Source: a virus. From it: a stretch of 22,799 bases of DNA. The notes beneath the pieces were generated by a model. The model ran no database searches. It was not told the DNA's origin and saw only the letters and a program-made list of their open reading frames with translations. The stretch spans positions 1-22,799 of the IMG/VR virus record IMGVR_UViG_3300046467_001457; one strand, given 5' to 3'. Positions 5,436-20,011 of the stretch are shown in pieces; the stretch's first letter is position 1, and every line of letters begins with the position of its first letter. Both the position numbers and the translations under genes were made by a program.

Positions 5436-6446
5436 ATGATAATTAACGAGTGGGAGCCGTCTTTTACGGAGAAATACGGCCATGTGTTTCCTAACACGTA
5501 TCTTTGCATTGATACAGAGTACACGGGTGGGAACGAGCGAGAAGATTTAGTTGTGGAGATTGGCCATGTGATGGTGCACGAAGGTCGTGTGATTGATCGC
5601 ATGAATGTTGTTTTGGACTGGTCGGTCTATGAAGATATTGATTCGGCTTTTGTTCGTTACAAGTTGGATGACATACGGTCAAGGATGGGTGATGATTGGC
5701 GTGTGACATGGGAGGTCATGAAAGAGGAAGGGATACCGCCAGTAAAGGCTCTCCGGTTTTACAACAAGTTGTTTAATATATGGCACAAGAGAGATCTACC
5801 CTACGTGGCACACAACGGTCGCAAGGCAGAGGAGAGGATGTTACGAGGTATTTTCAACAGAATAATACATAAGCCGTTTTTTATGCATGAAAACCAGTTA
5901 TGGGATACTGGTGCTATTTTCAAGGCGTCTATGTTGTGTGACTCTTCGGAGGCGTCTCATTCTTCTTCTCGCTGGAAAGCTTTCCCCGATCGTACTGATA
6001 GCCTCAAGTCCTACTTTAATCGTGTGATCAATGCGAGGGTAAAAGGTCTTTACTGGAATCTGAAGCACTGCCTTGAGTATTACGATTTAACAGGTAAATT
6101 GGAGGACACACACAGATTTCATCAGGCGGACTACGATGCGTATTGTTCCCACCTGTTGATGCAGGAATATAGGTCAAGAATTACACGGAATAATTCAGGA
6201 GAAAACGCGCTTGAAAGTTCGGAAACTTTCGAGCGTATGTATGAGGAAGAGCTTGCTAAGGTGAAGATTGCGGAGGAGGATGTGTTGACGAGGCTTGTAG
6301 AAGAGGCCCCACGACAGCCCTTACCCACTTTGCCTACGCCTGTAAAAGCAGAGGTTCCGACACCAAAGGTAACAGAAGTGTCACCAGATCTGCCTGCTCG
6401 CCCTCAGCCCCGAAAGGGAAGAAAAAGAGGACAAAGAGTAATATGA
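5436..6446 (+). CDS. DnaQ-like DEDDh 3'-5' exonuclease
   Basis: A 336-residue protein with start ATG 5436 behind a GGAACGAG site. Motif Exo I is Asp26-X-Glu28 in the context Cys-Ile-Asp-Thr-Glu-Tyr-Thr-Gly. Motif Exo III is His229-X4-Asp234 in His-Gln-Ala-Asp-Tyr-Asp-Ala-Tyr. The Exo II position is His126-Asn127 followed by Gly-Arg-Lys-Ala-Glu-Glu, so the usual Asp four residues after the Asn is not in place and Glu132 or Glu133 would have to stand in. Family role: metal-dependent removal of nucleotides from 3' ends of DNA or RNA, giving proofreading, end processing or RNA trimming. Residues from about 285 are a Pro-rich basic tail, probably disordered and possibly partner-binding. The stop overlaps the start of the resolvase gene. 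Together with the RecA-like gene upstream this suggests recombination or DNA-end processing. Confidence 0.75.
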   Translation: MIINEWEPSFTEKYGHVFPNTYLCIDTEYTGGNEREDLVVEIGHVMVHEGRVIDRMNVVLDWSVYEDIDSAFVRYKLDDIRSRMGDDWRVTWEVMKEEGIPPVKALRFYNKLFNIWHKRDLPYVAHNGRKAEERMLRGIFNRIIHKPFFMHENQLWDTGAIFKASMLCDSSEASHSSSRWKAFPDRTDSLKSYFNRVINARVKGLYWNLKHCLEYYDLTGKLEDTHRFHQADYDAYCSHLLMQEYRSRITRNNSGENALESSETFERMYEEELAKVKIAEEDVLTRLVEEAPRQPLPTLPTPVKAEVPTPKVTEVSPDLPARPQPRKGRKRGQRVI

Positions 6447-7018
6447 GCCATGAAGATGTGTTGAGTGAGGTTAAGGGTTTTATGGATAGTGTAGTAGCAC
6501 TACAGCTAAAGAAACCTATTTTTTTAGGTATTGACCCGGGGTCTACCGGGGCCATTTCTTTTTTACACCCGGTAAGCAATGAAAAGGCGATAGCAATAGA
6601 TATTCCCACCACTAAAGTGATGACTAAGAAAAAGGGGAAACCCAGTTACCGCACTCATACGGACTTGGGTGCGCTGTGGAGTATCTTCAAGTCGTTTGAG
6701 GACAGCTTTGGTAAGTTACATATCGTAATTGAGCATCAGCAACCAATTCCGCGAGACACTGCTTTGACGGGGTTTACTGTGGGGAGAAATTTTGGCATGT
6801 GGCCTTTATTCCTTTACAGTCACGGTGTTTCTCACGAGACAGTGCGTCCGATGGCGTGGAAACGAAAGATGGGTTTGATTAAAAAAGATAAAGAAGCAGC
6901 AAGGTTGAAGGCTCAGAAGATGTTTCCCGGCGCGTCTCTAAACAGGAAGAAGGATCACAACCGAGCTGAGGCTTTGCTTATTGCAGAATACGCACGTTTA
7001 AGGAGTAACGAAGAATGA
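6443..7018 (+). CDS. RuvC-like Holliday junction resolvase
   Basis: A 191-residue protein, the usual size for single-domain phage and poxvirus-type RuvC resolvases. It begins with the RNase H-fold strand carrying Asp31 in Gly-Ile-Asp-Pro-Gly-Ser-Thr-Gly-Ala. The second acid is Glu97 in Ile-Val-Ile-Glu-His-Gln. The C-terminal acids are Asp171 and Glu176 in Asp-His-Asn-Arg-Ala-Glu-Ala-Leu-Leu-Ile-Ala, in the helix that completes the metal site. The family cuts four-way DNA junctions symmetrically, which in phages clears branched DNA before packaging. The start ATG at 6443 overlaps the exonuclease stop (ATGA), so the two are translationally coupled, and its own stop overlaps the next gene in the same way. 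RuvC-fold nucleases also include non-resolvase members, but the spacing of acids fits a resolvase best. Confidence 0.85.
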   Translation: MSHEDVLSEVKGFMDSVVALQLKKPIFLGIDPGSTGAISFLHPVSNEKAIAIDIPTTKVMTKKKGKPSYRTHTDLGALWSIFKSFEDSFGKLHIVIEHQQPIPRDTALTGFTVGRNFGMWPLFLYSHGVSHETVRPMAWKRKMGLIKKDKEAARLKAQKMFPGASLNRKKDHNRAEALLIAEYARLRSNEE

Positions 7019-8178
7019 CAGATGAATCCCGAGACGCGGAGACTCCGGAAGATATTGTAGAGAAGGCTAAGCAAGAGTCTGTGGATAAAGCAGAGATCAC
7101 TGAGGAGCAGCAAGCTCACCTTGATCATTGGCAAGCACTCGCAGAAAAGGCTCAAGGGTTGCTCCTGTCTGATGATAATTTGCGTCAGGTTGTAGGGGCT
7201 ATGTTGGCGTCCAGACAGTTATATGCCATGGCGCTTCACGATATGGATGTGCGTGTCGATATGCTTGATGAGGAGGAGGAAGAGAGGGAGCAGCTGAAGG
7301 AGGTATTTATCTCCTCGGCGGCCAAGCAGGCGGCTAACCCTTTTGACGAAAACGAGCTACTTCAGGGCGTGCAGGAGACGGTGATTCCTTGGATGGAGAA
7401 GGTGTCGAAAGAGCATAATTTCCTTGAAGAGCGCACGCGACGCACTGAAATTCAGGAAGCAGAAGTAGAACGTCGAAACAAGGATGTCGCGATTGGGGTG
7501 GCGTATACTCAGACTGAGTTGCCTGAGGAGGACTCAGATGAAACAGAGATGGACGGAGTATACGAGCTTAATCGTGTCCGAACGCTGGTGCTGGTGGGGT
7601 GGAAGCCTGCCGTGCTGTGGGTCATTAATCATATATTGGAATATGTGACCTCTCCTGAGGCGTTTGCGTCTTCATTGGCTCCCAAGCAGACTGTTGTTCT
7701 TGCGAGGACGGCGGCGGGTCACAAAGACGCCCGTGTTATGACCCTAGGGGAAAAAGCATGGGAGAATTGTGCGCGTAGTAACGAGTGGTGGGGTCGCACC
7801 TTTCAGGAATCGTACTTAGACAAGCTGAAAGACCCTATGGACCTCTTTATAGTGACAGATTTGGCTCACGCGAGGGAGGGACACAGTTTTCAGTCGCCCA
7901 TGGCAAAAGCAGCTGACGCTCAGAAACGCTTGCGTAAATGGGCTACTAAAATGGGGTCAGCTTTTATAGGTGGTGTCCTTTTAGACAGTAAGAAGCTTCC
8001 AGAATTTAACACGCCTATCTGGGAACAACTCAGGATGTTTACGTATCTGCGTGCTGTGGGAGTGGAGGTCAGGGATGATGGTGACTATGACCTTATAATT
8101 GGAAGACACCATCGCATCTCGGGTGTCGCTAAGGCAGAGATTGAAGCTTTTACGTCTAGTGACATTATCACCCCATGA
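7015..8178 (+). CDS. hypothetical protein, possible degenerate P-loop/RecA-like domain
   Basis: 387 residues, start overlapping the resolvase stop. The N-terminal 80 residues and the stretch around 85-100 (run of Glu) are very acidic and helical. Residues from about 185 look like an alpha/beta P-loop-type core. A strand TLVLVGWKPAVLWVINHIL stands where a Walker A loop would be but lacks Gly-Lys-Thr/Ser. Next comes a strand with Val-Val-Leu-Ala-Arg-Thr, then Asp-Leu-Phe-Ile-Val-Thr-Asp-Leu, which looks like a Walker B strand, and a final strand SAFIGGVLLD. If this reading is right, the ATP site is lost and the protein may be a structural or loader partner of the recombination proteins. I see no closer family match, so the fold is a tentative inference. 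Confidence 0.6.
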   Translation: MTDESRDAETPEDIVEKAKQESVDKAEITEEQQAHLDHWQALAEKAQGLLLSDDNLRQVVGAMLASRQLYAMALHDMDVRVDMLDEEEEEREQLKEVFISSAAKQAANPFDENELLQGVQETVIPWMEKVSKEHNFLEERTRRTEIQEAEVERRNKDVAIGVAYTQTELPEEDSDETEMDGVYELNRVRTLVLVGWKPAVLWVINHILEYVTSPEAFASSLAPKQTVVLARTAAGHKDARVMTLGEKAWENCARSNEWWGRTFQESYLDKLKDPMDLFIVTDLAHAREGHSFQSPMAKAADAQKRLRKWATKMGSAFIGGVLLDSKKLPEFNTPIWEQLRMFTYLRAVGVEVRDDGDYDLIIGRHHRISGVAKAEIEAFTSSDIITP

Positions 8179-8194
8179 AGGAACGTGAAATTTT

Positions 8195-8758
8195 ATGAAG
8201 CCCAAAATCGAAATTGTGGTCGGTTATTCTTTAAAGCCCGAAGCTACGGATAAGAAAACGCCTAGGGATTTGTCTCCTTATCGCAGTGATATAGGGGATG
8301 TTCATATGATTATCCCTGCGGCCAAAAAAGCTATCACGTATCGTGGTGCGGGAAGAGACGAAGGAAGTGGCAAGTTACGGGTGTGCGAGGCTGCGGCAGC
8401 ATTTGTTAAGCGGCATTCTTACGACGTCGGCTTTCATCCTACGTTTGTTGGTTTTGACGTTAAAGCTTTTTTGCGGTTTGTAGGGTTCGGGTGTGCCGTT
8501 TCACATACGTTTTTTCCGTCTTCTTATTGGATGGATGAGGGGCACACAGTGGAGTTGTACGAGCAGCTCCTTCTTACTGGTGATGACGCCCAAAGCCCCA
8601 AGGATGCCTTTTTGTATTTCTCCAAGGGGTTCACGGGTGAAGATTTGGAAAAGTACACATCGCTTGTGAGACGAGGTGTGACACACGAAGATGCGGAGCA
8701 TGACGCTCAATTGGCATTTTTGTTCGGTTCTATTTTTCGGTTGTGGGGCACGCACTAG
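8195..8758 (+). CDS. hypothetical protein, 187 aa, faint exonuclease-like pattern
   Basis: Start ATG 8195, with GAAGGAACGTGAA upstream. I do not recognise it with confidence. Residues 84-95 (FVGFDVKAFLRF) and 164-175 (HEDAEHDAQLAF) recall the second and third motifs of DEDD exonucleases, and Tyr76-Asp-Val-Gly-Phe begins a strand. No Asp-X-Glu first motif is evident near the N terminus. It could be a divergent inactive relative or an unrelated protein. No signal peptide or membrane segment is seen. Confidence 0.65.
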   Translation: MKPKIEIVVGYSLKPEATDKKTPRDLSPYRSDIGDVHMIIPAAKKAITYRGAGRDEGSGKLRVCEAAAAFVKRHSYDVGFHPTFVGFDVKAFLRFVGFGCAVSHTFFPSSYWMDEGHTVELYEQLLLTGDDAQSPKDAFLYFSKGFTGEDLEKYTSLVRRGVTHEDAEHDAQLAFLFGSIFRLWGTH

Positions 8759-8767
8759 GTTAGTTGT

Positions 8768-9463
8768 ATGGTAGAAAGACCTGTCGATAATGAGCATCAC
8801 AAGTTCACTTCTCGTGTCGTCGCTGTAAAGGACATAAAGTTTTCGGGAAGTGCCTCCTCCTTGTCGTCTTTTGCTGATTGGGTGTGGTATACACCGGCCC
8901 CGGCTTTTTTGTGGGGAGGGTTGGGTAACGCTATTTTGTCTGATTTGCAGGAGTCGCTTGGGTTAGAGTATTACCAGCGAAGTTTCGACACCTTGATATT
9001 TTCCGGGTTTGAGCACGAGGGTTCGCAGCATTGGAATCGCACACTGTGGGCCTCTCCGCAGGCAGATTGGCCTAAGTTGCGGCAGGCATTTTTAGAGGTG
9101 ACTAACGTCAATGCCGAAGAATCCTTGATGATAAAGTACGGTTTACAGGAATTGGTTATTTATGATCCTCTTGCTGTAGAAAAGGCTGCCGTTATTACAC
9201 CTGAAATTCCTCTGCTCACCGTTTACGGGTTTGGGGTCATGACTAATAAAGTCACCATCGCATTTAACCCTTCACAGGACGTGGTAGAAAGACCTCGCGT
9301 ATACAGACAAAAGCCTGAAGAGGTTATGGTAGGCTTAGGTAATACGGTGCTGAAGTCTTCTCGCGAGTTAGGAGAAGTCGCCGAGAAGTTGGAAGGAACA
9401 ATTATCGAAGGCTCGCCTTATACCGCTTATGTGCGTAAGCGGCTAGATAAAGAAGGCAGGTAA
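8768..9463 (+). CDS. hypothetical protein, 231 aa
   Basis: Not recognised. Start ATG 8768, nine bases after the previous stop, with GGTTAGTTGT between, so the ribosome site is weak. The N-terminal half contains an aromatic-rich stretch (FADWVWYTPAPAFLWGGLGN, residues about 35-54). That stretch is not long or clean enough to call a membrane helix. The centre has regular beta-like strands, and the last 60 residues are helical and charged. It lies in a run of unrecognised genes between the recombination module and the portal. Confidence 0.7.
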   Translation: MVERPVDNEHHKFTSRVVAVKDIKFSGSASSLSSFADWVWYTPAPAFLWGGLGNAILSDLQESLGLEYYQRSFDTLIFSGFEHEGSQHWNRTLWASPQADWPKLRQAFLEVTNVNAEESLMIKYGLQELVIYDPLAVEKAAVITPEIPLLTVYGFGVMTNKVTIAFNPSQDVVERPRVYRQKPEEVMVGLGNTVLKSSRELGEVAEKLEGTIIEGSPYTAYVRKRLDKEGR

Positions 9464-9466
9464 GTC

Positions 9467-9784
9467 GTGGAGCATCCTATTTTCAGTGTACGAGAAGAGT
9501 TAGTTCCTCATGCGGTTGTAAACCTTAAAGTTTTTGAAGGAGACACCACAGAGGAGATTGAAAGTGCTATAAACGAGTGGGTTAAGAAAACACAAAATCT
9601 AGTGGTATGTCCGGGGCCTCTTTCCGTGGGAATGGGAAGATCCTCTATGGCTGTCACGTATGTGCGAGCAAATATTAATGGTGACCCCGAAAGAAAACGA
9701 GAAGTGGACAACACTCCTACACTTGATGCCAAACCAGACGTCCGACGCTCTGGGCTCGAAAGTGACGGGGGGAGAATTGCTTGA
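9467..9784 (+). CDS. hypothetical protein, 105 aa, GTG start
   Basis: Not recognised. GTG at 9467 follows the previous stop by three bases, with AAGAAGGCAGG upstream as a possible ribosome site. Residues 1-70 look like a small alpha/beta domain (VVNLKVFEGDTTEEIESAIN then a strand Leu-Val-Val-Cys-Pro-Gly-Pro). Residues 70-105 are polar and probably disordered. The 3' third overlaps the next reading frame by 125 bases if that gene starts at 9660, so the shared stretch is dual-coding or the next gene starts later. Confidence 0.6.
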   Translation: MEHPIFSVREELVPHAVVNLKVFEGDTTEEIESAINEWVKKTQNLVVCPGPLSVGMGRSSMAVTYVRANINGDPERKREVDNTPTLDAKPDVRRSGLESDGGRIA

Positions 9785-10298
9785 GGAGTCGGCGTATAAT
9801 TATCAAGCGGCATTGGAAGTTGTACCTGTAGCGTTGCATGAGCGTCTTGCTGATCCGGATAGTGAGGTACGGGAAGAAATTGCTACTCAGCCTGCGTGGT
9901 GCTTATGTGAAATGCCGGAAGGCGATTATTCTCGTGTGCGTGTTTTCCCTGACTTGGATCACATGGTAAAGCACATCGGGAGGCTAGAGGGAGAAGAAGT
10001 CTCAGTGTGGGCTTTTTATGGTACTCCTCTTCGTATTACACAGCCGATGGGTTCTCCCGGCCAGCGTTATTTACTCATTTCCGAACAAGAAGTTATCCCT
10101 ATTCCTCATCGTGGCGGCGAGGTTTTGCGCCCTGTATCTGAAAATCAGATACTGCCAGAGGTACAGGAAGACGGGTGGTTGGGGGATGCGGCGTTTACAC
10201 AAGGTAGTACGGAGACTTATTATGCATATGAAGCACCCAGTGACGATCAGTTCGACGGGGACGGGGATGAGGAAGAAGGGGAGGAAGTTGACGTTTAG
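9660..10298 (+). CDS. hypothetical protein with acidic C-terminal tail
   Basis: Up to 212 residues. The start is uncertain: ATG codons at 9660, 9678 and 9726 all lack a clear ribosome site, while a TTG at 9777 lies only two bases after a GGGGGGAG run. The confidently coding part begins near 9760. Not recognised. The body has a small beta-rich domain (residues about 75-165) with Trp-Cys-Leu-Cys-Glu-Met-Pro and a Pro/Gly-rich loop. The last 25 residues are almost all Asp, Glu and Gly, a tail type seen in phage assembly and DNA-mimic proteins, with no proof of either here. Confidence 0.65.
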   Translation: MCEQILMVTPKENEKWTTLLHLMPNQTSDALGSKVTGGELLEESAYNYQAALEVVPVALHERLADPDSEVREEIATQPAWCLCEMPEGDYSRVRVFPDLDHMVKHIGRLEGEEVSVWAFYGTPLRITQPMGSPGQRYLLISEQEVIPIPHRGGEVLRPVSENQILPEVQEDGWLGDAAFTQGSTETYYAYEAPSDDQFDGDGDEEEGEEVDV

Positions 10299-10326
10299 TG
10301 TGTTACACTAAGGGGGACTTTTTTTT
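10295..10326 (+). terminator. weak hairpin plus T-run, possible intrinsic terminator
   Basis: A 7-pair A/T-rich stem (10295-10301 with 10305-10311, 3-base loop) begins inside the stop codon of the upstream gene. It is followed by five Gs and then eight Ts at 10319-10326. The T-run is good, but the stem is weak and seven bases separate the two, so termination efficiency is doubtful. The gap to the next start (10299-10346) also holds an AGGGGAA ribosome site. Confidence 0.35.
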
Positions 10327-10346
10327 AGCTATCAGGGGAATATATC

Positions 10347-11324
10347 GTGTCGACCGGTAAGACAGAACTTGTAACTGCACACACTCCGGATGATACTGCT
10401 TACCATCCGGGATTGAATGCATACGGCACGACGATTCCTCGGGCCAACAAGGAGGGCGGCTCACGTGGATTTGACCCTCATAAGCCCGGTGTGGTGATAG
10501 TGGACCCCGACATGGAAGATGGTAATTTAGAGGTAGATTTTTCTAAGTTTGGTGAGATTGCGGATTTTAATAACAAGATTCAACGTGCTGTAGGTGATTC
10601 CCCCAATGCGGATAGTGCTTTTAAAGCTTACAGTGATATTGCGGGGGAGTTGACGGGCAGTAAGGATGAGACATCTTCCTCTGCCCCTTCGTCCTCTACC
10701 CCGAAGAAGGAACCCAATAGCGTGAATAGACCAAAATTGAGGAAGCCGACACCTTTGGTGCGTACTGCTCCGGTGATGCAGGAGACTACGCAGGGTAACG
10801 AACACGAACTACAGACGCAGGCAGCGCTTGCCGAGCAGGCGGAGATGATACGTCAACTGTCTTCTGAGTTGTCCAAGTTAAGGGAGGTCAGGGAAGTGGT
10901 ACCGCCTGCGGCACCACCTGTGGCAGAGGCTATCCCCCCGGTGGAGGACGAACCTGAGGAGGAAGTAGGTGTTGATTTGGCGCAGGACCACCTTGGAATG
11001 CCTTTCTTGGGTCTTTCTGCTCCCCTGAAACCACAGAAGGAGATCTACTTCGAAATGCCCCAAGCCGGTACAATGGGGGCTCGGTACCACGAAGTAATTG
11101 AGGGCGGCAATTGCATAGCCCTTGTGTATGATACGCGGTACGAGGAGGGCTATCAGTGGATTCCGCCCTCACTTGGCGACTCGAAAATTAAGATGACCCT
11201 TCCCCGGGAGAATAAAACCTACACTTGTTCGAGTGTCGGCATTCAGTTTCATATTGGTGTTTTAGACGTGGTTGTGTTGTTTAAGCACGACGACGACGAA
11301 GACGTAGTTAAGGAGAATTATTGA
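10347..11324 (+). CDS. hypothetical protein with disordered centre and C-terminal beta domain, GTG start
   Basis: 325 residues from GTG 10347, behind AGGGGAA at suitable spacing. Not recognised. Residues 1-100 are polar, with Gly-Phe-Asp-Pro and Asp/Gly-rich turns. Residues 105-145 are Ser/Pro/Lys-rich and disordered. A helix around residues 150-180 (AALAEQAEMIRQLSSELSKLREV) looks like a coiled coil. A Pro/Glu linker follows, then a C-terminal beta-rich domain of about 100 residues ending in an Asp cluster. This modular build, placed just upstream of the portal, would fit a virion-associated or assembly protein, but no motif proves that. Confidence 0.7.
   Translation: MSTGKTELVTAHTPDDTAYHPGLNAYGTTIPRANKEGGSRGFDPHKPGVVIVDPDMEDGNLEVDFSKFGEIADFNNKIQRAVGDSPNADSAFKAYSDIAGELTGSKDETSSSAPSSSTPKKEPNSVNRPKLRKPTPLVRTAPVMQETTQGNEHELQTQAALAEQAEMIRQLSSELSKLREVREVVPPAAPPVAEAIPPVEDEPEEEVGVDLAQDHLGMPFLGLSAPLKPQKEIYFEMPQAGTMGARYHEVIEGGNCIALVYDTRYEEGYQWIPPSLGDSKIKMTLPRENKTYTCSSVGIQFHIGVLDVVVLFKHDDDEDVVKENY
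11311..11315 (+). promoter_or_regulatory. Shine-Dalgarno site for the small Cys-rich gene
   Basis: AGGAG lies eight bases before ATG 11324 and inside the end of the preceding gene. It favours the 11324 start over the in-frame TTG at 11321. Confidence 0.55.
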
Positions 11325-11569
11325 TGACAATGGAAAAGCGTGGTGTTATTAACGATGATACGCCTTCAGGTACGTGTTGCGGCGGTAAAGCGGGTTGTGG
11401 AGATGCTGGCGATAAGGGCGAGGCGGGTGATCCCGACAAGCAAATGCTCCTCAAGTTTGGCCAGCACGCCGAACCTGCCACAGAAAAAGAGGCAGATGAC
11501 ATGGAAAGCAATTCCATGACAGACGCGATTGATGCTGTAGTGAAGGAGACCGAAGAAGATGGCGAGTGA
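11324..11569 (+). CDS. small cysteine-containing acidic protein, 81 aa
   Basis: The ATG at 11324 overlaps the preceding TGA (ATGA). Not recognised. Residues about 17-26 hold a Cys-Cys-Gly-Gly-Lys-Ala-Gly-Cys cluster that could bind a metal or form a disulfide. A Gly/Asp-rich linker and an acidic helical C terminus follow. The stop overlaps the start of the next small gene. Size and composition suggest an accessory or assembly factor. Confidence 0.65.
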   Translation: MTMEKRGVINDDTPSGTCCGGKAGCGDAGDKGEAGDPDKQMLLKFGQHAEPATEKEADDMESNSMTDAIDAVVKETEEDGE

Positions 11570-11807: not shown

Positions 11808-13763
11808 ATGTCAAACAATTCAATGTTCTGGAAGCATTCCACACCGGGTGGGGATGAGGCTTTTCCCGACCCTTTTTTGGACGTAGCGTCTCAGAATATG
11901 CCGGAGACGATCCGGAGCGCTCTTCACTATTCTGAATATATTTGGAATGTGTTCGGCACGTATCGAATGGCGATGGAGAGGGTGGTCTCCTATTTCCTCA
12001 CGGACATTGAGATTTCGGGGGATGTCTCAAATGACGAGAAGGATAAATACACCGAATTTTTAGAAGATTCTCTGGATGCTATGGAGTTCCTGCAAAATAT
12101 GATGCGGGATCGTATGTGCTATGGGAATGCGTTTGGTAGTGTCCTTGTCCCTTTTCGCCGCTTCTTGATGTCTCCGCAGACGGGTGACATGTTTCCTCTA
12201 CATGTCGTTTACAATAATGCTAAGTTCAACTTTAAGTGGTCTGAGAAATTTGAATTCATAGCTACGTGCCCTAAGACGAATTGGCGTGGTCCTTGGAAGG
12301 TGGTAGACAAGCCAGAGGACGAAGAAGATCACATATCATTGAAGCGGTGGAATCCGCATGAGATCGAAATTCTACATGACCCCTACACGGACGAAGCATC
12401 CTACCTGTGGCGAATTCCTGAAGACTATAAGCGTCTTGTTCGAAAGGGTCATCTTTTTCACCTAGAGCGTGTGAGTGAAGAAGTGTTGAAGGCGATTCAG
12501 CACGACCATATGTTCCGTTTCAACGATGACGCTATTTTTCACATGAAAGAGCCTACCCTTGCGGGCATTCGTAATCGCGGGTGGGGGCTTCCTCGCAGTC
12601 TCGTTAATTTTCGCCAGATTTATTACGTGCAAGTATTGCGTCGTTTTAACGAAGCAATTGCTTTGGACTATGTGATCCCGTTTCGTCTCATTACTCCTGC
12701 GCCTCGCGGGGGTGGTAATGCGGGCGGCATGCCTGCCCAAGACCCGATGATGTTTCATAACGCCGGGGATTTCAGGTCGCAGGTTAAGGGGATGATTAAC
12801 CGCCGTCGTAAGGACCCTGCGAGTTGGCAAATTTTGCCTTTCCCGGTTAATTACCAAATGCTCGGAGGGGATGCGAATGATCTAGCTCCCAAGGAGTTAT
12901 TGGATCAAGGGTTGGAAACTCTCTTGAATGAGTCAGGCACTCCTGTGGAGCTGTATAAGGGCAGTCTGCAACTGCAAGCCGCGCCCGTGGCATTGAGATT
13001 GTTTGAAAGTACGTGGCGTAATCTTGTGCAAGAAGCTAATTCTCTTATCCAGTGGATTCTAGGTAACATTTCACAATTGATGAGTTGGGAACCCGTTGAT
13101 GGTGCCTTGACCCGTGTAACCATTGCTGACGACATGAACAAGCAGATGGCTGCTCTCCAGTTGATGATGGGTCAGCAAGTATCTGGTACTACTGGTCTCA
13201 AGGCCATTGGTTACGATTGGGATACTGAGCAACGGTTGCTGGCTGAAGAAGCTCAGACGCAGCAAGAGTTGCAGGCTCGAACGCAGGAAGAGATGGAGCA
13301 GGCAGGTTTTGCTGCTGAGGTCGCTAAGGGTATGAACCCGATGGCTCCGCCTCCTCCGGATGGCGGTCAGCAAGGCGCTATGGGTGCTCCTGATTCTATG
13401 GCTGGGGCTGTTGCTGGCGGTCAGGGTGGTGGGGGTAATCCTGCTGGTCCGGACGCTCAGTCAGCTATGGGGGCCGGTGGGACGCCTGTCAGTGATTATG
13501 TTGGGACTATGGGACCCAACACTCCTATCACACCTAATGATTTACAGGCTGCTGCTGAGTCGTTGGCGCAGGAGTTGTTGGGGTTGGACGAGGGCACGAA
13601 AGACTCACAATTACGAGAGCTCAAACAGTTTAATCCGACACTTCATGCGTTGGTACGTGAGAAGATGGATGACATACGCAGGCAAACCCGCATGCAGGGA
13701 GGCGCTATGCTGATGCAGCAGCAAGGCATGGGCGGCGGTCAGGGCGGCGCACCTCCTATGTAA
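11808..13763 (+). CDS. phage portal protein
   Basis: 651 residues starting at ATG 11808 behind a strong GGAGGA site. The N-terminal half carries the portal pattern: helices with Trp-Asn-Val-Phe-Gly-Thr-Tyr-Arg-Met-Ala, then Tyr-Gly-Asn-Ala-Phe-Gly-Ser-Val, the conserved glycine-centred turn before the wing strands. Arg/Trp-rich strands follow around residues 150-260. A long helical region at residues 260-480 fits the stem and crown. The tail beyond about residue 508 is rich in Gly, Met, Pro and Gln and probably flexible, with a final helical stretch and a Gly/Met end. Portals form the dodecameric ring at one capsid vertex through which DNA is packaged. The length is at the upper end for the family because of the tail. 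No terminase lies in the window, so the packaging genes must be outside it. Confidence 0.8.
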   Translation: MSNNSMFWKHSTPGGDEAFPDPFLDVASQNMPETIRSALHYSEYIWNVFGTYRMAMERVVSYFLTDIEISGDVSNDEKDKYTEFLEDSLDAMEFLQNMMRDRMCYGNAFGSVLVPFRRFLMSPQTGDMFPLHVVYNNAKFNFKWSEKFEFIATCPKTNWRGPWKVVDKPEDEEDHISLKRWNPHEIEILHDPYTDEASYLWRIPEDYKRLVRKGHLFHLERVSEEVLKAIQHDHMFRFNDDAIFHMKEPTLAGIRNRGWGLPRSLVNFRQIYYVQVLRRFNEAIALDYVIPFRLITPAPRGGGNAGGMPAQDPMMFHNAGDFRSQVKGMINRRRKDPASWQILPFPVNYQMLGGDANDLAPKELLDQGLETLLNESGTPVELYKGSLQLQAAPVALRLFESTWRNLVQEANSLIQWILGNISQLMSWEPVDGALTRVTIADDMNKQMAALQLMMGQQVSGTTGLKAIGYDWDTEQRLLAEEAQTQQELQARTQEEMEQAGFAAEVAKGMNPMAPPPPDGGQQGAMGAPDSMAGAVAGGQGGGGNPAGPDAQSAMGAGGTPVSDYVGTMGPNTPITPNDLQAAAESLAQELLGLDEGTKDSQLRELKQFNPTLHALVREKMDDIRRQTRMQGGAMLMQQQGMGGGQGGAPPM

Positions 13764-13772
13764 AGGGAACAT

Positions 13773-14570
13773 ATGACTCGTATTGGTTTTATTTGCCCCA
13801 CTCACCGAGAAGAAGAACTACACGAATACACCGCCTCTTCTCTTCGTTCATTTTTCCAGACAACTCCTTCTGGTTTAGCTATTGTTGTTGATGACGCGTC
13901 TGCCGGATGGGAGCCTATTCACGAAAGCCACCTTAAGACTCTTGCCGAATATAAGGGACAAGAGTGCTTTGTCTTTCGTTTTAAGGAGTGGGGTGGCCTG
14001 ACTCGCAGCTGGAACGAGGGGCTACGCATTGCCCGCGATTTCGATTGCGACTACGTTATTTGCGGAAATAATGATATTATTTTTCCGCCTCGCTGGCACG
14101 AAGGTCTTCTCCACGCCCTTGAGCATGGGTATAGCCTTGTCGGTCCACTTTCAAATGCTCCGGGGGTCAGTAGGCCGCAGGAGGTATGGCGATACTACGA
14201 AGATTATGAAGTAAACGATTCTGATATGTACATCAATAAGGTTCAAACCTATCTCATTAATAACTACATGGGTGAGGTAGTGGAGCACTCCATTAACGGC
14301 TTTTTCCAGATGGCCCATATGGATACGTGGCAAGCGGGGAGTTACGAACCTGACAATGTTTACCGCCCCCGTAATGATGTAACGAGCAAGGGGCATAAAA
14401 ATGCCACCCCTCTCATGACACTCAACGAGGATGAATTACAGGGAAGGTGGCGTAAACTTGGATTCAAAAGCGCTTTTGTTCCTAGCAGTTTTATTTTTCA
14501 CTATCGCGCAGTAACGCGGGGGAGAAAATATGCGAAGGGTCGTTGGCACAGAAAGATGGGAAGAGAATGA
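13773..14570 (+). CDS. GT2-family glycosyltransferase
   Basis: 265 residues, starting nine bases after the portal stop with AAGGGAAC as ribosome site. The order of motifs is typical for GT2. The first strand is GFICPTHRE. The nucleotide-binding Val-Val-Asp-Asp-Ala-Ser has Asp40 and Asp41. Then comes Gly-Gly-Leu-Thr-Arg-Ser-Trp-Asn-Glu-Gly at residues 74-83, where these enzymes normally have a Gly-X-X-X-Ala-X-Asn turn. The acidic metal site is Asn-Asn-Asp at 99-101. These enzymes move a sugar from a nucleotide donor to a growing glycan or protein. No membrane segments are present. The stop overlaps the next glycosyltransferase start, making this the first gene of a coupled glycan cassette directly behind the portal. 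Donor and acceptor are not evident. Confidence 0.82.
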   Translation: MTRIGFICPTHREEELHEYTASSLRSFFQTTPSGLAIVVDDASAGWEPIHESHLKTLAEYKGQECFVFRFKEWGGLTRSWNEGLRIARDFDCDYVICGNNDIIFPPRWHEGLLHALEHGYSLVGPLSNAPGVSRPQEVWRYYEDYEVNDSDMYINKVQTYLINNYMGEVVEHSINGFFQMAHMDTWQAGSYEPDNVYRPRNDVTSKGHKNATPLMTLNEDELQGRWRKLGFKSAFVPSSFIFHYRAVTRGRKYAKGRWHRKMGRE

Positions 14571-15247
14571 CACGAGTGATTGTTTATAGCTGCGTTACTT
14601 CTGGTTACGACAACATAGATCGTGCGATATTACGCAGCGACCCCATTCGTGAGGATAATGTTCAGTTCCGGTTGTTTACAGACAAATCACCGGCAGGCAG
14701 CACTGGAGTATGGGAAGTGGGCCCGTTGAAATGGCACCATTCTGTTTGCCCTAGACGCACTGCTCGTTATCACAAGTGTATGGCACATCGTATATTGCCT
14801 GCCCATGATTACAGTGTTTGGGTCGATGGTAGTCAGGTCTTGAAAACTGTGCGTGTGTGGGAAGACATTGTTAAACCTATGGTTGAGCGAGGAGAGGATC
14901 TAGCCACTTTTAAGCATCCTCTTCGTCAGTGCGCCTATCAGGAAGAGCGGGCGTGTAAGAGGCATAGGAAGGACAATTTTGACGTTATGCGGGGACAGAT
15001 GGACAGGTACCGCGAAGAGGGTTATCCAGCTTACAGTGGAATGGTTGAAACAGCTTGCGTGGTTCGGGCAGACACTCCTGAAATCCGTGAGTTTAGTAAG
15101 CAGTGGTGGGACGAGATTTGCACGGATAGTTTTCGTGATCAATTGAGTTTTAACTACGTGTGTTGGCGTCTTGGTCAGTCTTATGGTCATATCCCCGGGC
15201 ACCGAGAGGAATCCTCATTTTTTGATTTTGTTTCACATAAGCGATAG
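14567..15247 (+). CDS. DUF616 (TOD1/MUCI70-type) glycosyltransferase-like protein
   Basis: From the preferred ATG at 14567, which overlaps the upstream stop as ATGA, the protein has 226 residues. A TTG at 14543 would add eight. The N terminus reads Val-Tyr-Ser-Cys-Val-Thr-Ser-Gly-Tyr-Asp, followed by Phe-Thr-Asp and then Arg-Thr-Ala-Arg-Tyr-His-Lys. The core is Tyr-Ser-Val-Trp-Val-Asp-Gly-Ser at residues 82-89, where Asp87 lies in the presumed donor/metal site. Phe-Lys-His-Pro-Leu-Arg and Ala-Tyr-Gln-Glu-Glu follow. This set is characteristic of the DUF616 family, a GT-A-like group present in plants and bacteria. It is the second glycosyltransferase of the cassette. Confidence 0.78.
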   Translation: MTRVIVYSCVTSGYDNIDRAILRSDPIREDNVQFRLFTDKSPAGSTGVWEVGPLKWHHSVCPRRTARYHKCMAHRILPAHDYSVWVDGSQVLKTVRVWEDIVKPMVERGEDLATFKHPLRQCAYQEERACKRHRKDNFDVMRGQMDRYREEGYPAYSGMVETACVVRADTPEIREFSKQWWDEICTDSFRDQLSFNYVCWRLGQSYGHIPGHREESSFFDFVSHKR

Positions 15248-15256
15248 TTCAGTTTT

Positions 15257-16321
15257 ATGTATACATTGGGCATATGTTCGCCTTATAGGCGTTGCGAGGC
15301 TACGTTAGCGGCTATTCGGTTGGCCGACTTGGGACGTGAATTGGCGATGAATGTTCGGTTTTTAGCCGAGGGTTCTGTACAAAAAGGGGTCGATCACTAC
15401 TGGGATCAGCGAGTAACCAGCACTAAAGGCAACAACGCTTATAAGTGGGCATCCGGTTGCACCCATATAACGTGGTTTTCGAAGGATGAAGAGCTTTATG
15501 ACAAAGCATTTCTCGTCTCCCCGGGAGCCAAGCACTGGTATGTACCTACGTGCCATGGTGCGAAGCAGTCCGAACGTACAGCTCCTCAGGAGGATTTACG
15601 GGTTGTGTGTCCTTCTAAGCAAGCCAAGAACGAGATTTTGTCTAGGAGCTCTGACGAGTTCTCTGATAAGCGCGTAACATGGTGTTTGTGGGACAGCGGT
15701 TTTAAAACGATCAACCACTACGACAAGAGCAGCCAAAGTGACATTTCTATATATGTTCCTATTCTGTCCCACGTCATAGACGAGACAGGGGAGCTTGTAT
15801 TGCGGGCTGTGTATGATTTGTTAAAGTTGTTTCCTGAGGTGCACTTCACGTTGGAATTTGAGAAGTCTTGGTCTAAGTCTGCTCGTTCTCTTGTGCGTTA
15901 TCTGCGAGAATTTTACGGAGATCGCATTAGTGCAGCTTACGGATTGTCACCCCTTACTGATTTGCGGCAGATGCATGGACATGACTGGACTTGGATACCA
16001 AGTACTCGGGTGAACACGGGTATAACGGCTCAGCGTAGTTTAGCCTGCGGAACTCCCGTTATCGTGTATGATATAAGTCCTTACTGCGAGTTCATTACTG
16101 ATGAAGTAAATGGCGTTCTCATCGAATGCGATGTATATTCAGATTGGTCCGGGGCTCCGATAGCTGGGCCTCGTTTTGTCTCAGTAGTTAGCACCTTGTC
16201 ACGGGTGATAACTGGTGAACGGAAGTTACACGCTAAATGTCAAGAAACAACTGTAGCCCGAGAGAAGAACCACGCCAAACAATTTCGTCTATTCTGGGCG
16301 AAGGAGTGGGGCGTCGTGTAG
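15257..16321 (+). CDS. GT-B glycosyltransferase, GT4-like
   Basis: 354 residues. Start ATG 15257 lies ten bases after the previous stop, with no strong ribosome site. The C-terminal domain shows the GT4 donor-binding signature: Ala-Cys-Gly-Thr-Pro-Val-Ile-Val-Tyr-Asp near residue 263, then Tyr-Cys-Glu-Phe-Ile near 275 and Asp-Glu-Val-Asn-Gly-Val-Leu-Ile-Glu. Before it are a strand Ile-Ser-Ile-Tyr-Val-Pro and a helical loop followed by Val-His-Phe-Thr-Leu-Glu, as in the family. The N-terminal half is diverged, with a Gly-Ala-Lys-His-Trp-Tyr-Val-Pro stretch. Such enzymes retain or invert a sugar bond on a lipid, protein or glycan acceptor. Its last 85 bases overlap the next gene in another frame. 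Confidence 0.8.
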   Translation: MYTLGICSPYRRCEATLAAIRLADLGRELAMNVRFLAEGSVQKGVDHYWDQRVTSTKGNNAYKWASGCTHITWFSKDEELYDKAFLVSPGAKHWYVPTCHGAKQSERTAPQEDLRVVCPSKQAKNEILSRSSDEFSDKRVTWCLWDSGFKTINHYDKSSQSDISIYVPILSHVIDETGELVLRAVYDLLKLFPEVHFTLEFEKSWSKSARSLVRYLREFYGDRISAAYGLSPLTDLRQMHGHDWTWIPSTRVNTGITAQRSLACGTPVIVYDISPYCEFITDEVNGVLIECDVYSDWSGAPIAGPRFVSVVSTLSRVITGERKLHAKCQETTVAREKNHAKQFRLFWAKEWGVV

Positions 16322-16917
16322 TTGCGGTCACCGGGATTTTCGGTGCGTGGCTCAATCAGGTATCTCGCTGTTTGGAATCAGCCGGAGGTGTGGTTCTATG
16401 GCCGGAACAAGATTTGGAGCTTGGTGAGGCTCGCGACAAGTACAGGAAAAACGGAGAAAACAAGGAGCTACTTAGAATTCATGAGTTTATTCTTGAGGAA
16501 TGTAACTTGGGATGGTTTTCCCCGTTGAGGCCTAAATTTTTTGACGTTCCTTATCCGGGTCCGCATGAGTACCTGTCAAAATTCCCCGAAGACAAACATG
16601 TTATTTTGACGGACATTAACCTTTGCTTTTTTTTACCGTTGTGGCAGGACTACCTTACTGATTTGGTAGTGGTGAGAGTTCCTTATGACGAGGCGGATAA
16701 GACATTGGCGGAGTGGCTGCCTCGCACAACTAGACAGGAAAGACGCGAAGTAATAGATAATTATCAGCAATCTTTGGAAGGTGATATCGGTCTAATTAGT
16801 AAAGTTTGGTACATTGAAAACAAGGAATTGAAGGTTAATCCCGGTTCGACGTGTCTTACCGTTGGCAAACCGAGCAACGATTTAAATTCCAGAATTTATG
16901 CTAAGGAAGGCATATGA
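16237..16917 (+). CDS. sulfotransferase-like protein with degenerate PAPS loop
   Basis: Up to 226 residues from ATG 16237, which would overlap the GT4-like gene by 85 bases; a GTG at 16306 is a possible later start. The layout resembles bacterial sulfotransferase/P-loop proteins. A first strand and glycine loop are seen at about residues 29-45 (VVAVTGIFGAWLNQVSRCL), without the usual Gly-X-X-Arg-Ser-Gly-Thr/Ser. Next is a strand-turn around residue 122, Ile-Leu-Thr-Asp-Ile-Asn-Leu-Cys-Phe-Phe-Leu-Pro-Leu-Trp, which matches the family's Lys-Asp-Pro-Arg-Leu ... Leu-Pro-Trp region with substitutions. Last is Leu-Val-Val-Val-Arg-Val-Pro-Tyr-Asp, which stands for the Arg-His-Pro loop. If it is active it would move a sulfate onto a glycan; if not, it may be a binding subunit. 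The similarity is from pattern only. Confidence 0.55.
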   Translation: MSRNNCSPREEPRQTISSILGEGVGRRVVAVTGIFGAWLNQVSRCLESAGGVVLWPEQDLELGEARDKYRKNGENKELLRIHEFILEECNLGWFSPLRPKFFDVPYPGPHEYLSKFPEDKHVILTDINLCFFLPLWQDYLTDLVVVRVPYDEADKTLAEWLPRTTRQERREVIDNYQQSLEGDIGLISKVWYIENKELKVNPGSTCLTVGKPSNDLNSRIYAKEGI

Positions 16918-17147
16918 TGTATGAGAAAATTGCTTTGTTGGGAAAGGCAGCGGCACGCCGTAGGGGACGTTATCATCGCCCTACGTTGCTACCACCCAGA
17001 AAATCTTCTAATTCTCGTACGTTTAAAGTAGGAGACAAGAAAAAGAAGAAGGACGCTAAGAAGGCGTTACATGAACCAAGTGGTAACGTACAATCTCCGC
17101 ACCGGTATGGTCGGAAAGTGAAGAAACGTGAAGCGGACAAGGAATGA
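16914..17147 (+). CDS. small highly basic protein coupled to the tubulin-like gene
   Basis: 77 residues, starting at ATG 16914 (or the next codon, also ATG at 16917) behind AAGGAAGG and overlapping the previous stop. Composition is extremely basic: an Arg cluster at residues 14-19 (AARRRGRY) and Lys runs at about residues 43-51 and 68-73. It has no cysteines or membrane helix. The stop overlaps the tubulin start as ATGA, so the two are translated together. It may bind DNA, RNA or acidic proteins, and by analogy to tubZ/tubR could be the DNA-linking partner of the GTPase, though no helix-turn-helix is evident. Confidence 0.65.
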   Translation: MMYEKIALLGKAAARRRGRYHRPTLLPPRKSSNSRTFKVGDKKKKKDAKKALHEPSGNVQSPHRYGRKVKKREADKE

Positions 17148-18607
17148 GTAAAAGAAGGCGGGTGACCATTCAGCATGGCGAACATGGCCCCCGTGATTTC
17201 TATAATCGTGTAAGGAGTCCCGAAGAAATGAATGATACCCCGAATGATCCTCGTCCTACCGACGAGGAGTTACGTAAATCTATTGACGCCGCAAGCGGTA
17301 ATGCGGAAGAAGATTCCGCGTCACCCGAGGCTAAAGAGGAAGCGGTCCCCGTAGTAAATACTGTGAGCGCTCCGGTTCCTCCTCCTCCAGCTTCGACTGA
17401 GAGTGCGCCTCCTCTGGCGGTTCCACCGCCCGGCGTATCAGTTGTAGATGTTTCTAACATTGCTGCGGTTGTTTCCCCGCAGTCCCACCAGCAAGCTGCT
17501 AAGCAAGTTGTTGTTAATGATGCTCACGGGTACGAAGTGGCATTTAACATGGCTTTCTTAGGGGCCGGGCAGGGCGGAGGCCGTCTGGCTGCTGCCTTCC
17601 ATTCACTCGGCTATCGTCGGGTGGGCTGCGTTAACACCACGGATACTGATTTTGAGGGTCTGCCTGAAGATATTAATCGTCATAGTCTGGATGTAGGCGG
17701 CGCAGCTAAGGATGCTCAGTTTGCTGCCGACAGTCTCGACGGTCGTGAGGAGGAAGTCTGGGATCTTCTCCAGCGATCGTGGGGTAATGATATGGAGTAC
17801 GGTTTGATATGCGCAGGACTTGGGGGCGGTACGGGTAGTGGTTTATCTCCCAAGCTCGTAGAGATTGCACGACGGTACATGGAGAGCAAAGGGAAAGCTC
17901 CTCGTGTGGGCGTTATTCTTTCTTTGCCCGAAACGGGCGAAGGCCAGCAGGTGTGCAGGAACGCACTTCAAAGCCTTAAAAAACTGCTAGATCTCAAGGT
18001 GAGCCCTGTTGTTTTAGTGGACAATTTTCAAGTGAGGAAACTGTACAAGCCCGGTTTCCTTTCGGTTCATTCCACGATTAACAACACCGTGGCTCAGCTG
18101 TTCCATATCTTCAATCAATTGGGCGCTGTACATAGTCCGTTTGTAACGTTCGATAGGAGCGAGTTGGCTCAGTTGTTAGATCACGGTATTGTGGTAATGG
18201 GCGCGGCCTCTTTGGAGCCTGAGCAGATTGAAAGCCCAGCTGATATTTCTGAGGCCATCCGAGATCAATTGTCCGGCAGCGTGCTGGCCGAGGTTGATTT
18301 GCGGAAAGGCAGAAAGGGAGCTGTTCTGTTTGTAGGAGATCTACAGACTCTTGATCAGTTGAGCATGGATTTCTTTGACGCTGGGTTTACACAAATGAGT
18401 CGTACATTGGGAAGTGCATTACAGGGTGTTAACACTGTGGTACACCGTGGTGTGTATCCCGGAAGTGCTCCCGGTTTGCAGATGTACGCCATGATTTCTG
18501 AATTGGAGGCACCTGTAAAGAAGCTGGCGGAGATGGCAAAAGAGGCGGCAATGGACAAGTCGGTTCTAGAGTCTACTGTAGCTAAGTTTCTTGGTGTTGA
18601 CGGTTAA
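17144..18607 (+). CDS. tubulin/FtsZ-superfamily GTPase with long N-terminal extension
   Basis: 487 residues. After a 130-residue extension rich in Glu, Ser and Pro comes the GTPase fold. The first loop is Phe-Leu-Gly-Ala-Gly-Gln-Gly-Gly-Gly-Arg at 138-147, then Asn-Thr-Thr-Asp-Thr-Asp at 164-169. The diagnostic tubulin signature is Gly-Gly-Gly-Thr-Gly-Ser-Gly at 227-233. The T7-like loop has Phe-Asp337-Arg-Ser-Glu340-Leu, keeping two acids at the catalytic positions (FtsZ has Asp-X-X-Asp there). The family polymerises head to tail with GTP hydrolysis. Phage members include PhuZ, which positions a phage nucleus, and TubZ of plasmid-type partitioning systems. No FtsZ-type C-terminal peptide is obvious, which argues against a host division protein. 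The gene is coupled to a small basic protein upstream and lies between two glycosyltransferase groups. Confidence 0.88.
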   Translation: MSKRRRVTIQHGEHGPRDFYNRVRSPEEMNDTPNDPRPTDEELRKSIDAASGNAEEDSASPEAKEEAVPVVNTVSAPVPPPPASTESAPPLAVPPPGVSVVDVSNIAAVVSPQSHQQAAKQVVVNDAHGYEVAFNMAFLGAGQGGGRLAAAFHSLGYRRVGCVNTTDTDFEGLPEDINRHSLDVGGAAKDAQFAADSLDGREEEVWDLLQRSWGNDMEYGLICAGLGGGTGSGLSPKLVEIARRYMESKGKAPRVGVILSLPETGEGQQVCRNALQSLKKLLDLKVSPVVLVDNFQVRKLYKPGFLSVHSTINNTVAQLFHIFNQLGAVHSPFVTFDRSELAQLLDHGIVVMGAASLEPEQIESPADISEAIRDQLSGSVLAEVDLRKGRKGAVLFVGDLQTLDQLSMDFFDAGFTQMSRTLGSALQGVNTVVHRGVYPGSAPGLQMYAMISELEAPVKKLAEMAKEAAMDKSVLESTVAKFLGVDG

Positions 18608-18610
18608 CTA

Positions 18611-19063
18611 GTGAGAGTTCCTATAAAATTCCCGCCTGAGTTGCTTGCAGCGATGGCGGGAGCCCCTTCGGCCTCTCCACAACTTACAACGAAAAAAAAG
18701 ATCCTCTTCGTTGATGGGGAGATGTATGGATCATTAGAGTTTCCAATGTCCTTCAATTTAGGACGTGGCCAATTGCTTCGACTTGCTGGATACGGTGAGC
18801 TGCAAGTATTAGAAGCAACAATTGATACACTCACCTGCACGAAGGAAATTAGTGAGGATTTATACGATGAATACGAACGAAACCCCCCAGCCCCTGACCC
18901 CGTCCCTGAGCCAGTTGTCGCCCCTGCCGGGGGAGGATCTGCCTGCGGCACAAGACCTGTTTCGGGAGCTAGTTGCGAGGTACCGACAGGAAAACGCACC
19001 GAAACAAGACACCCAACACTTGGAAGTATTGAAGGAGGCTCAACCCCTTCTCGATTTCTTTAG
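18611..19063 (+). CDS. hypothetical protein, GTG start, 3' half overlaps next gene
   Basis: 150 residues from GTG 18611, three bases after the tubulin stop. No strong ribosome site is seen, so translation is probably coupled. Residues 1-90 look like a real folded unit (KKKILFVDGEMYGSLEFP, then a helix-strand pair with Leu-Glu-Ala-Thr-Ile-Asp). From about residue 87 on, the frame is read across 197 bases that also encode the next gene. The tail is Pro/Gly/Thr-rich and low in structure, so it may be tolerated rather than selected. Not recognised. A true earlier end caused by a sequencing indel is possible. Confidence 0.55.
   Translation: MRVPIKFPPELLAAMAGAPSASPQLTTKKKILFVDGEMYGSLEFPMSFNLGRGQLLRLAGYGELQVLEATIDTLTCTKEISEDLYDEYERNPPAPDPVPEPVVAPAGGGSACGTRPVSGASCEVPTGKRTETRHPTLGSIEGGSTPSRFL
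18854..18858 (+). promoter_or_regulatory. ribosome site inside the preceding gene
   Basis: GAGGA lies eight bases before ATG 18867 and supports that start over the upstream ATG at 18822, which has no such site. Confidence 0.5.
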
Positions 19064-19220
19064 TGAAGAGCTAAAGAGGAATCCCCCTACGACAGCAACA
19101 GCTTTTAAAGGGTATGCTGTTATTACTTTTGCGGATGGGACACGTACCCAGCTGGGAGAAGGGGAGGAAGGTGCTCTTGAGCCGGGGGCTATCGAGCCGA
19201 CCAATAGCATCAAGATATGA
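18867..19220 (+). CDS. hypothetical protein, 117 aa, nested start in previous gene
   Basis: Start at ATG 18867 with a GAGGA ribosome site; an ATG at 18822 is in frame but weaker. The first 25 residues are Pro/Thr-rich. They are followed by a helix (AQDLFRELVARYRQENAPKQ), a second amphipathic helix (LEVLKEAQPLLDFFSEELKR) and a short beta hairpin (GYAVITFADGTRTQLGEG), which looks like a normal small soluble protein. The stop overlaps the next start (ATGA at 19217). Not recognised. Its overlap with the previous gene is unusually long for this window. Confidence 0.65.
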   Translation: MNTNETPQPLTPSLSQLSPLPGEDLPAAQDLFRELVARYRQENAPKQDTQHLEVLKEAQPLLDFFSEELKRNPPTTATAFKGYAVITFADGTRTQLGEGEEGALEPGAIEPTNSIKI

Positions 19221-20011
19221 ACTTTGAAGATGTATTTTTTCCATATTTGCTTGGGCTCTTTGGTCAGTACCAGCACGATATGGATTTATCACTTGCTGAC
19301 GCTCAAAAGAGAGGGCCGGGTTCTTTCGTTGAGTGGATAAAAAATACGGTTTCTCCTCCCCCTCTTGAAGAGGAAGAGGAGGAGGAGGAGGAGGAGTACG
19401 GGGAAGACGAAGACGAAGACGAAGACGAAGAGCGCTCACTGGGAAGTGATGCGCTCTTCGTTTTGTCGAATTTTATATCCGCTGATCCTACGGGTCATTG
19501 GATGAAGGAGTTCTGGTCCCCTATCCTCGTTGCTACTCGTGGTACTCCTCGCAATCCTATTGCGGAGATGCACGTTAACTACCTTCTCCGGTGGGCAGAT
19601 GATCGAGTGTTCTCTTTCACCTGCGTGTTACCTTCTCATTTAATAATGCCCGCAGGTGCTTTGTCTGATTATCTAGTCACCAAGATTGGTAGCCTGAGTT
19701 CTGTGCAGTTCTATGATGTGGTAGCACAAAAGTCGTTGGACCTGCTTCATGACGCTCAGCAACTTAAGATCACGAAAGAACACATAGAAGAAGTTCTTAG
19801 GCGTGCTGTCGTTGCCGTGAAGGATGAAGAGGATTTAGAGGAGAGAGAATGCCTACAGAATGTGATTAAGTTTTTACGTTCCGTAGTTGTGCCCCCCTTA
19901 CCTCCCGAAGCTGAAACGAAGGCACGTATGTCAATTATGGGGCGTAATTTGAAGGGCGGTAAGTGGCAGGTTGTTTCTACTGATAATTCCCATGAGGGGG
20001 AAGAAGATTAG
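19217..20011 (+). CDS. hypothetical protein with Glu/Asp repeat tract, 264 aa
   Basis: The ATG overlaps the previous TGA (ATGA). Not recognised. Residues 1-50 form a helical or beta N terminus (MNFEDVFFPYLLGLFGQY, mildly hydrophobic). Residues 51-72 are a nearly pure Glu then Glu-Asp tract encoded by codon repeats. Residues 75-210 look like an alpha/beta domain with strands (FSFTCVLPSHLIM), then charged helices. The end is polar and probably disordered. The acidic tract could bind basic proteins, for example the small basic protein coupled to the tubulin, but nothing proves this. Confidence 0.7.
   Translation: MNFEDVFFPYLLGLFGQYQHDMDLSLADAQKRGPGSFVEWIKNTVSPPPLEEEEEEEEEEYGEDEDEDEDEERSLGSDALFVLSNFISADPTGHWMKEFWSPILVATRGTPRNPIAEMHVNYLLRWADDRVFSFTCVLPSHLIMPAGALSDYLVTKIGSLSSVQFYDVVAQKSLDLLHDAQQLKITKEHIEEVLRRAVVAVKDEEDLEERECLQNVIKFLRSVVVPPLPPEAETKARMSIMGRNLKGGKWQVVSTDNSHEGEED
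19367..19432 (+). repeat. in-frame trinucleotide/hexanucleotide repeat coding acidic residues
   Basis: A tandem run of GAG/GAA codons (10 codons) is followed, after TAC-GGG, by GAA-GAC repeated four times and then GAA-GAG. It stays in frame and encodes Glu and Asp only. Such runs mutate by slippage, so length may vary between relatives. Confidence 0.8.

Follow-up and report, generated by a model that had tools for sequence, protein, structure and literature searches.

A TubZ-type tubulin-superfamily GTPase with an N-terminal leader, encoded after the portal gene in uncultured phages

The window, meaning the whole 22.8 kb stretch of DNA analysed here, is a fragment of a large uncultured virus of bacteria. 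Its plus strand carries a portal gene, three glycosyltransferase-like genes, a small basic gene and a gene of the tubulin superfamily, with the following features.

11808-13763, plus strand: portal protein, matching the portal of phage Arash; anchor of the conserved neighbourhood
13773-16321, plus strand: three glycosyltransferase-like genes in the portal-to-tubulin interval (PF00535, PF04765, PF00534)
16914-17147, plus strand: small, very basic protein with the end PHRYGRK..., its stop and the tubulin start overlapping in ATGA
17144-18607, plus strand: TubZ-type tubulin/FtsZ-superfamily GTPase, 487 aa (PF00091, AlphaFold2, Foldseek)
17144-17227, plus strand: residues 1-28, basic N-terminal peptide with the core GEHGPRDFY at 17177-17203 (motif count, pN/pS)
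17212-17230, plus strand: possible internal start, AAGGAG (17212-17217) followed by Met29 (17228-17230) (sequence, alignment)
17312-17434, plus strand: residues 57-97, variable linker with 12 Pro among its 41 residues (pLDDT below 50)
17435-17536, plus strand: residues 98-131, conserved pre-domain segment (pN, alignment)
17561-17578, plus strand: residues 140-145, the T1 glycine loop GAGQGG, which hardly varies among 45 relatives
17822-17842, plus strand: T4 tubulin signature GGGTGSG, residues 227-233, its five glycines invariant in 45 relatives
18149-18163, plus strand: T7 catalytic loop FDRSE with D337 and E340 (alignment of 45 relatives)
18581-18604, plus strand: C-terminal end AKFLGVDG, conserved in the group-1 protein alignment

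The portal protein matched the protein annotated as portal in Salmonella phage Arash with 27% identity over 72% (E 2e-48), and the Arash portal protein has been detected in its virion (PMC10585845). The PF04765 gene is of the TOD1/MUCI70 type. The small basic protein upstream of the tubulin was found in some relatives only (L002, L003, L026, L160 and L168), where it ends in (S/P)PHRYGRK or a variant. Elsewhere in the window, positions 6443-7018 encode a RuvC-like Holliday junction resolvase (phrog_1770, E 1.7e-26), and positions 1237-2274 gave a DUF1016_N match (33.2 bits, cut-off 32.8) together with a weak ParB-type HTH match.

In order to place the tubulin we searched for its relatives. A tblastn search of 50,697 phage records found no homologue with an E-value of 1 or lower, and plasmids gave weak TubZ matches only. 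IMG/VR yielded first a set of close relatives, then 125 loci with a broader profile and at least 344 with a group-2 profile, hundreds in all, falling into two groups; both counts include duplicates between contigs, and the best 80 matches of each scan were read. The family is widespread and undescribed, although an earlier account may exist in the literature on chimallin/PhuZ phage diversity. Group 1 consists of phages of roughly 200 kb (contigs of 157-235 kb), and group 2 of mostly short contigs, the longest of 162 kb among the matches listed. Loci L173-L218 and L233-L307 represent a large uncultured phage group with the order nuclease-terminase-portal-tubulin and without a close cultured relative. 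One group-1 contig of 194 kb (G004) encodes a DNA polymerase, ribonucleotide reductase and SbcC-like genes, and is the one group-1 phage in which we saw its own multisubunit RNA polymerase, with beta and beta-prime-like subunits at L043:2004-6440 and 8153-11332. These subunits are related to those of Arash, in which they are virion components. By portal and RNA polymerase, the cultured phages nearest to G004 are Arash and the Vibrio phages D69, D148 and D181; a profile search of Arash and D181 found no tubulin of the window's family. A group-2 portal gave one weak match only among cultured phages. A host gene present by contamination was also considered and set aside, as group-1 patterns, which reach close relatives only, found no relative in genome contigs.

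The gene is linked to the portal gene in both groups. In group 1 the genes run portal, glycosyltransferases, tubulin, with about 2-5 kb from the portal gene to the tubulin gene wherever the two are found near each other. Of the 86 distinct tubulin genes of group 2, 67 directly follow the portal gene, 12 lie within 2 kb of it and one at 5 kb, and for the remaining six no portal gene was found. The usual group-2 order is TerL-portal-tubulin, with a block of structural genes downstream on contigs that are long enough. The group-2 terminase just upstream was identified by phrog_2 (E 1.6e-26) and the portal by phrog_16240 (E 2.6e-5) together with its position; the downstream genes R12-R14 resemble a head block, R13 being the only one of those tested with a structural PHROG match. 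The group-1 portal profile gave no match to the one group-2 portal searched. Close relatives at L078/L080 and L083 keep the flanking genes and lack the tubulin, forming natural empty sites, and more distant relatives on contigs of 197-205 kb are also without it. The tubulin is therefore an accessory gene, which comes and goes at one place.

The open reading frame at 17144-18607 almost certainly encodes a GTPase of the tubulin superfamily. PF00091 matched the window protein at E 7e-10 (39.9 bits, cut-off 33) and was found in 45 of 45 relatives at E 0.1 or better. A full-length model built first, on 16 sequences, was of poor quality (pLDDT 61.7, and below 50 for residues 50-131); AlphaFold2 then predicted residues 93-487, with an alignment of the 45 relatives, as a full tubulin fold of two domains (pLDDT 90.8, pTM 0.88). 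The GTPase fold proposed in a sequence-only reading of this DNA is thus predicted with confidence, and with the window-protein model Foldseek returned TubZ, CetZ and FtsZ. The motifs picked out in that reading, namely GGGTGSG, the first glycine loop, NTTDTD (residues 164-169), D337 and E340, were all present where it had placed them. Within the T7 pair, D337 is invariant in the 45 relatives and position 340 is D or E in all of them. The folded part is under strong purifying selection, with pN 0.042 against pS 0.83 between the window and relative L002. Judging from the catalytic residues, the protein is likely to polymerise. No FtsZ tail peptide had been noted before and we found none either, but the C-terminus has a conserved end of its own, with the consensus AKFLGV[DN] kept among group-1 proteins.

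In profile-profile comparison the closest family was plasmid TubZ (E 1e-29 for group 1, 1e-32 for group 2), with CetZ second (5e-16 and 9e-14), FtsZ third (1e-8 and 3e-11) and PhuZ last (9e-7 and 1e-4). The top Foldseek match in the PDB was TubZ 4ei7 (E 2e-25). In a library of viral structures the first match was A0A6J5RW92, which is annotated as FtsZ and comes from an uncultured Caudovirales phage (E 2.6e-30, 23% identity), and named PhuZ proteins followed at about 1e-11. The Pfam domain TubZ-like_C was found in 14 of 45 family members. Identity with FtsZ was ruled out, since the NCBIfam FtsZ equivalog TIGR00065 gave 32.2 bits of the 295.2 needed; the placement inside host FtsZ that would have refuted the sequence-only reading thus did not come about. 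Identity with PhuZ was ruled out by the weak profile match and by the tree, in which seven PhuZ proteins form a clade of their own (support 100/100). The attachment of the family itself is blurred by long branches: family and PhuZ form one side of a weakly supported branch, and in the AU test neither the family as one clade (p 0.389) nor the family with TubZ (p 0.343) was rejected. There is good support for a family separate from both PhuZ and FtsZ. The sequence-only reading had suggested a new class of viral cytoskeletal protein; the group is indeed distinct from PhuZ, but "new class" is too strong, because fold, motifs and profile comparison put it near plasmid TubZ, and by these measures it is best described as a new branch of a known kind.

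The N-terminal leader is real and translated. It had been described as a disordered, Glu/Ser/Pro-rich extension of about 130 residues, and its length holds: the first beta strand of the AlphaFold2 model begins at residue 136, leaving some 131-135 residues ahead of the fold. However, only residues 1-97 are variable, with E+S+P at 38%, whereas residues 98-131 are conserved, and the leader also contains a short conserved motif. Codons 1-28 have pN 0.224 against pS 0.575 (window and L002) and are translated, as the lower pN indicates. The linker of residues 57-97 is the least constrained (pN 0.355). Residues 98-131 have pN 0.084 against pS 0.78 in the same pair, share the pattern NxA...H.QA..QVVV.D, and may form an H0-like helix or element, the model placing a short helix at 106-110 with low confidence. 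Among 22 distinct group-1 proteins the leader measures 62-143 residues before T1. Some of them carry GE-x-G-[PTAW]-[RK] near the N-terminus; GE.G occurs within the first 35 residues in 8 of the 22 (shuffled sequences: mean 0.07, maximum 2), so that more than half lack it. In group 2, DI-x-[LMIV]-P-[DE]-I or a close variant of it is present in the leaders of 33 of 34 distinct proteins, and the sole exception, L204, has the near match MIDMPDI. The group-1 members without GE-x-G mostly begin near the position of Met29 in the window protein, which aligns with the start of the short members and is preceded by AAGGAG, resembling a Shine-Dalgarno sequence. Since Met29 has such a sequence of its own, a second start there, and hence two isoforms, is possible.

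The tethering through the N-terminus proposed earlier is plausible, because short conserved motifs sit within otherwise variable leaders in both groups, although in group 1 over half of the distinct proteins have no GE-x-G. Two ideas on the group-1 motif were rejected. A prohead-protease cleavage or capsid-targeting signal, raised by the N-terminal Glu of GE-x-G, does not agree with a conserved side that lies downstream of the motif, and the strict motif was found at the N-terminus of no other protein in three large contigs. A link between GE-x-G and the PHRYGRK end of the upstream protein found no such pairing elsewhere in the three large contigs.

On our preferred reading, the gene would make a filament-forming GTPase of TubZ type that the phage would use in the stage of head assembly or DNA packaging; we give this reading, including action through the leader, a probability of about 0.4, and take it as the best single interpretation of the gene order. 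The protein would bind GTP in the canonical tubulin fold, as the predicted fold and the motifs suggest. Subunits would assemble head to tail, each using its T7 acidic pair to trigger GTP hydrolysis in its neighbour, and dynamic filaments would result, which is consistent with the intact catalytic residues and with the behaviour of the superfamily. The flexible leader with its short motif could then connect the filament to an anchor or a cargo. Because the gene keeps its place behind that of the portal, the likeliest candidates are the portal, the prohead or the membrane at which proheads assemble. Such filaments may shift or place proheads relative to the replicating phage DNA, in the manner of PhuZ and apparently without a nucleus of the chimallin type. 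The fold, the catalytic motifs, the closeness to TubZ, the linkage to the head module, the purifying selection and the leader motifs would all fit this reading. Against it stand the accessory nature of the gene, the glycosyltransferases between portal and tubulin in group 1 and the presence of GE-x-G in only 8 of 22 proteins, and proximity to the portal gene may merely reflect shared late expression.

Other explanations have to be weighed against this reading. The least unlikely gives the protein a structural or assembly role in the head, where it would form a ring or short filament at the portal vertex, regulated by GTP, instead of a cytoskeleton. The position immediately beside the portal gene in group 2 and the conserved C-terminal end in group 1 would suit such a role, but the conserved T7 catalytic pair argues for hydrolysis coupled to filaments, and absence from close relatives would be unusual for a gene that builds heads. 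Ranked behind it, and improbable, is a DNA partition motor whose filaments would act on a TubR adaptor and a tubC centromere to segregate a phage genome kept like a plasmid. TubZ is the nearest family by profile and by structure, and TubZ-driven partition of a phage plasmid has been described (Oliva 2012, as cited in PMC7824862). However, the tubulin gene lies in a block of head genes and not beside a replication or partition gene; neither profiles nor phmmer found a TubR-like protein within the group-1 and group-2 loci searched, a weak test because plasmid TubRs diverge (that of Niallia was missed by the other two); and positions 16200-19300 of the window hold no tubC iterons, only short two-copy repeats.

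Interference with host division, in which the protein would act on host FtsZ or other host filaments and yield a filamented cell with a larger burst, appears less probable again. Phage proteins that target FtsZ are common and the window protein belongs to the same superfamily, but its sequence and fold are closer to TubZ, it retains the whole catalytic machinery, which a simple inhibitor would not need, and its gene is tightly linked to that of the portal. Least likely of all is a PhuZ-like role, positioning a nucleus-like replication compartment in an infection of chimallivirus type. Nucleus-forming phages encode RNA polymerase subunits such as the beta and beta-prime-like pair of G004, and PhuZ is known to transport capsids (PMC13282480). 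Yet a five-member profile that recovered left-out chimallins at 1e-76 to 1e-130 found no chimallin in three large group-1 contigs (179-208 kb, possibly incomplete, the window's own genome not being among them), and PhuZ is a separate clade with a much weaker profile match. An unrelated shell protein may stand in place of chimallin.

Tubulin has been regarded as a distinguishing feature of the nucleus-forming Chimalliviridae, and it has been noted in only a few other large phages (PMC11835377). Our scans add at least 344 loci (duplicates included) in uncultured phages that encode a relative of the window tubulin, and the gene is tied to the portal gene in two phage groups whose portals are not detectably related in a one-sequence test. 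Because of this number and of the portal linkage in both groups, a phage tubulin appears separable from the phage nucleus. A tubulin family unrelated to that nucleus, forming portal-adjacent filaments for head assembly or packaging and gripping proheads or portals by leader peptides, is a more tentative proposal than the preferred reading above and somewhat doubtful at present. The portal-linked family offers a testable case for filaments that serve capsid assembly or packaging.

The window protein resembles several known systems. Like PhuZ of the Chimalliviridae (phiKZ and others), it is a phage-encoded tubulin-superfamily GTPase; unlike PhuZ, it matches by profile at E 9e-7 or weaker and in the GTPase part only, no chimallin was found in the three large group-1 contigs searched, and it has a long leader, whereas phiKZ TubZ/PhuZ has no significant extension at the N-terminus (PMC3678025), in line with the earlier remark that known phage members begin near the GTPase fold. 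It shares the fold of haloarchaeal CetZ (PDB 4b45, 3zid) with the second-best profile match, but CetZ proteins are cellular and form their own clade (100/100). A0A6J5RW92, itself uncharacterised, shows that phage proteins of this kind are already in databases, labelled FtsZ. The closest likeness is to plasmid TubZ/RepX of Bacillus type (PDB 4ei7, 2xka), in the tubulin fold, the GGGTG[ST]G loop and the T7 acidic pair. From these plasmid proteins the window family differs by an identity of only about 20%, by loci in which TubR and iterons were not found, by its place in the phage head region, and by a long, motif-bearing N-terminal leader.
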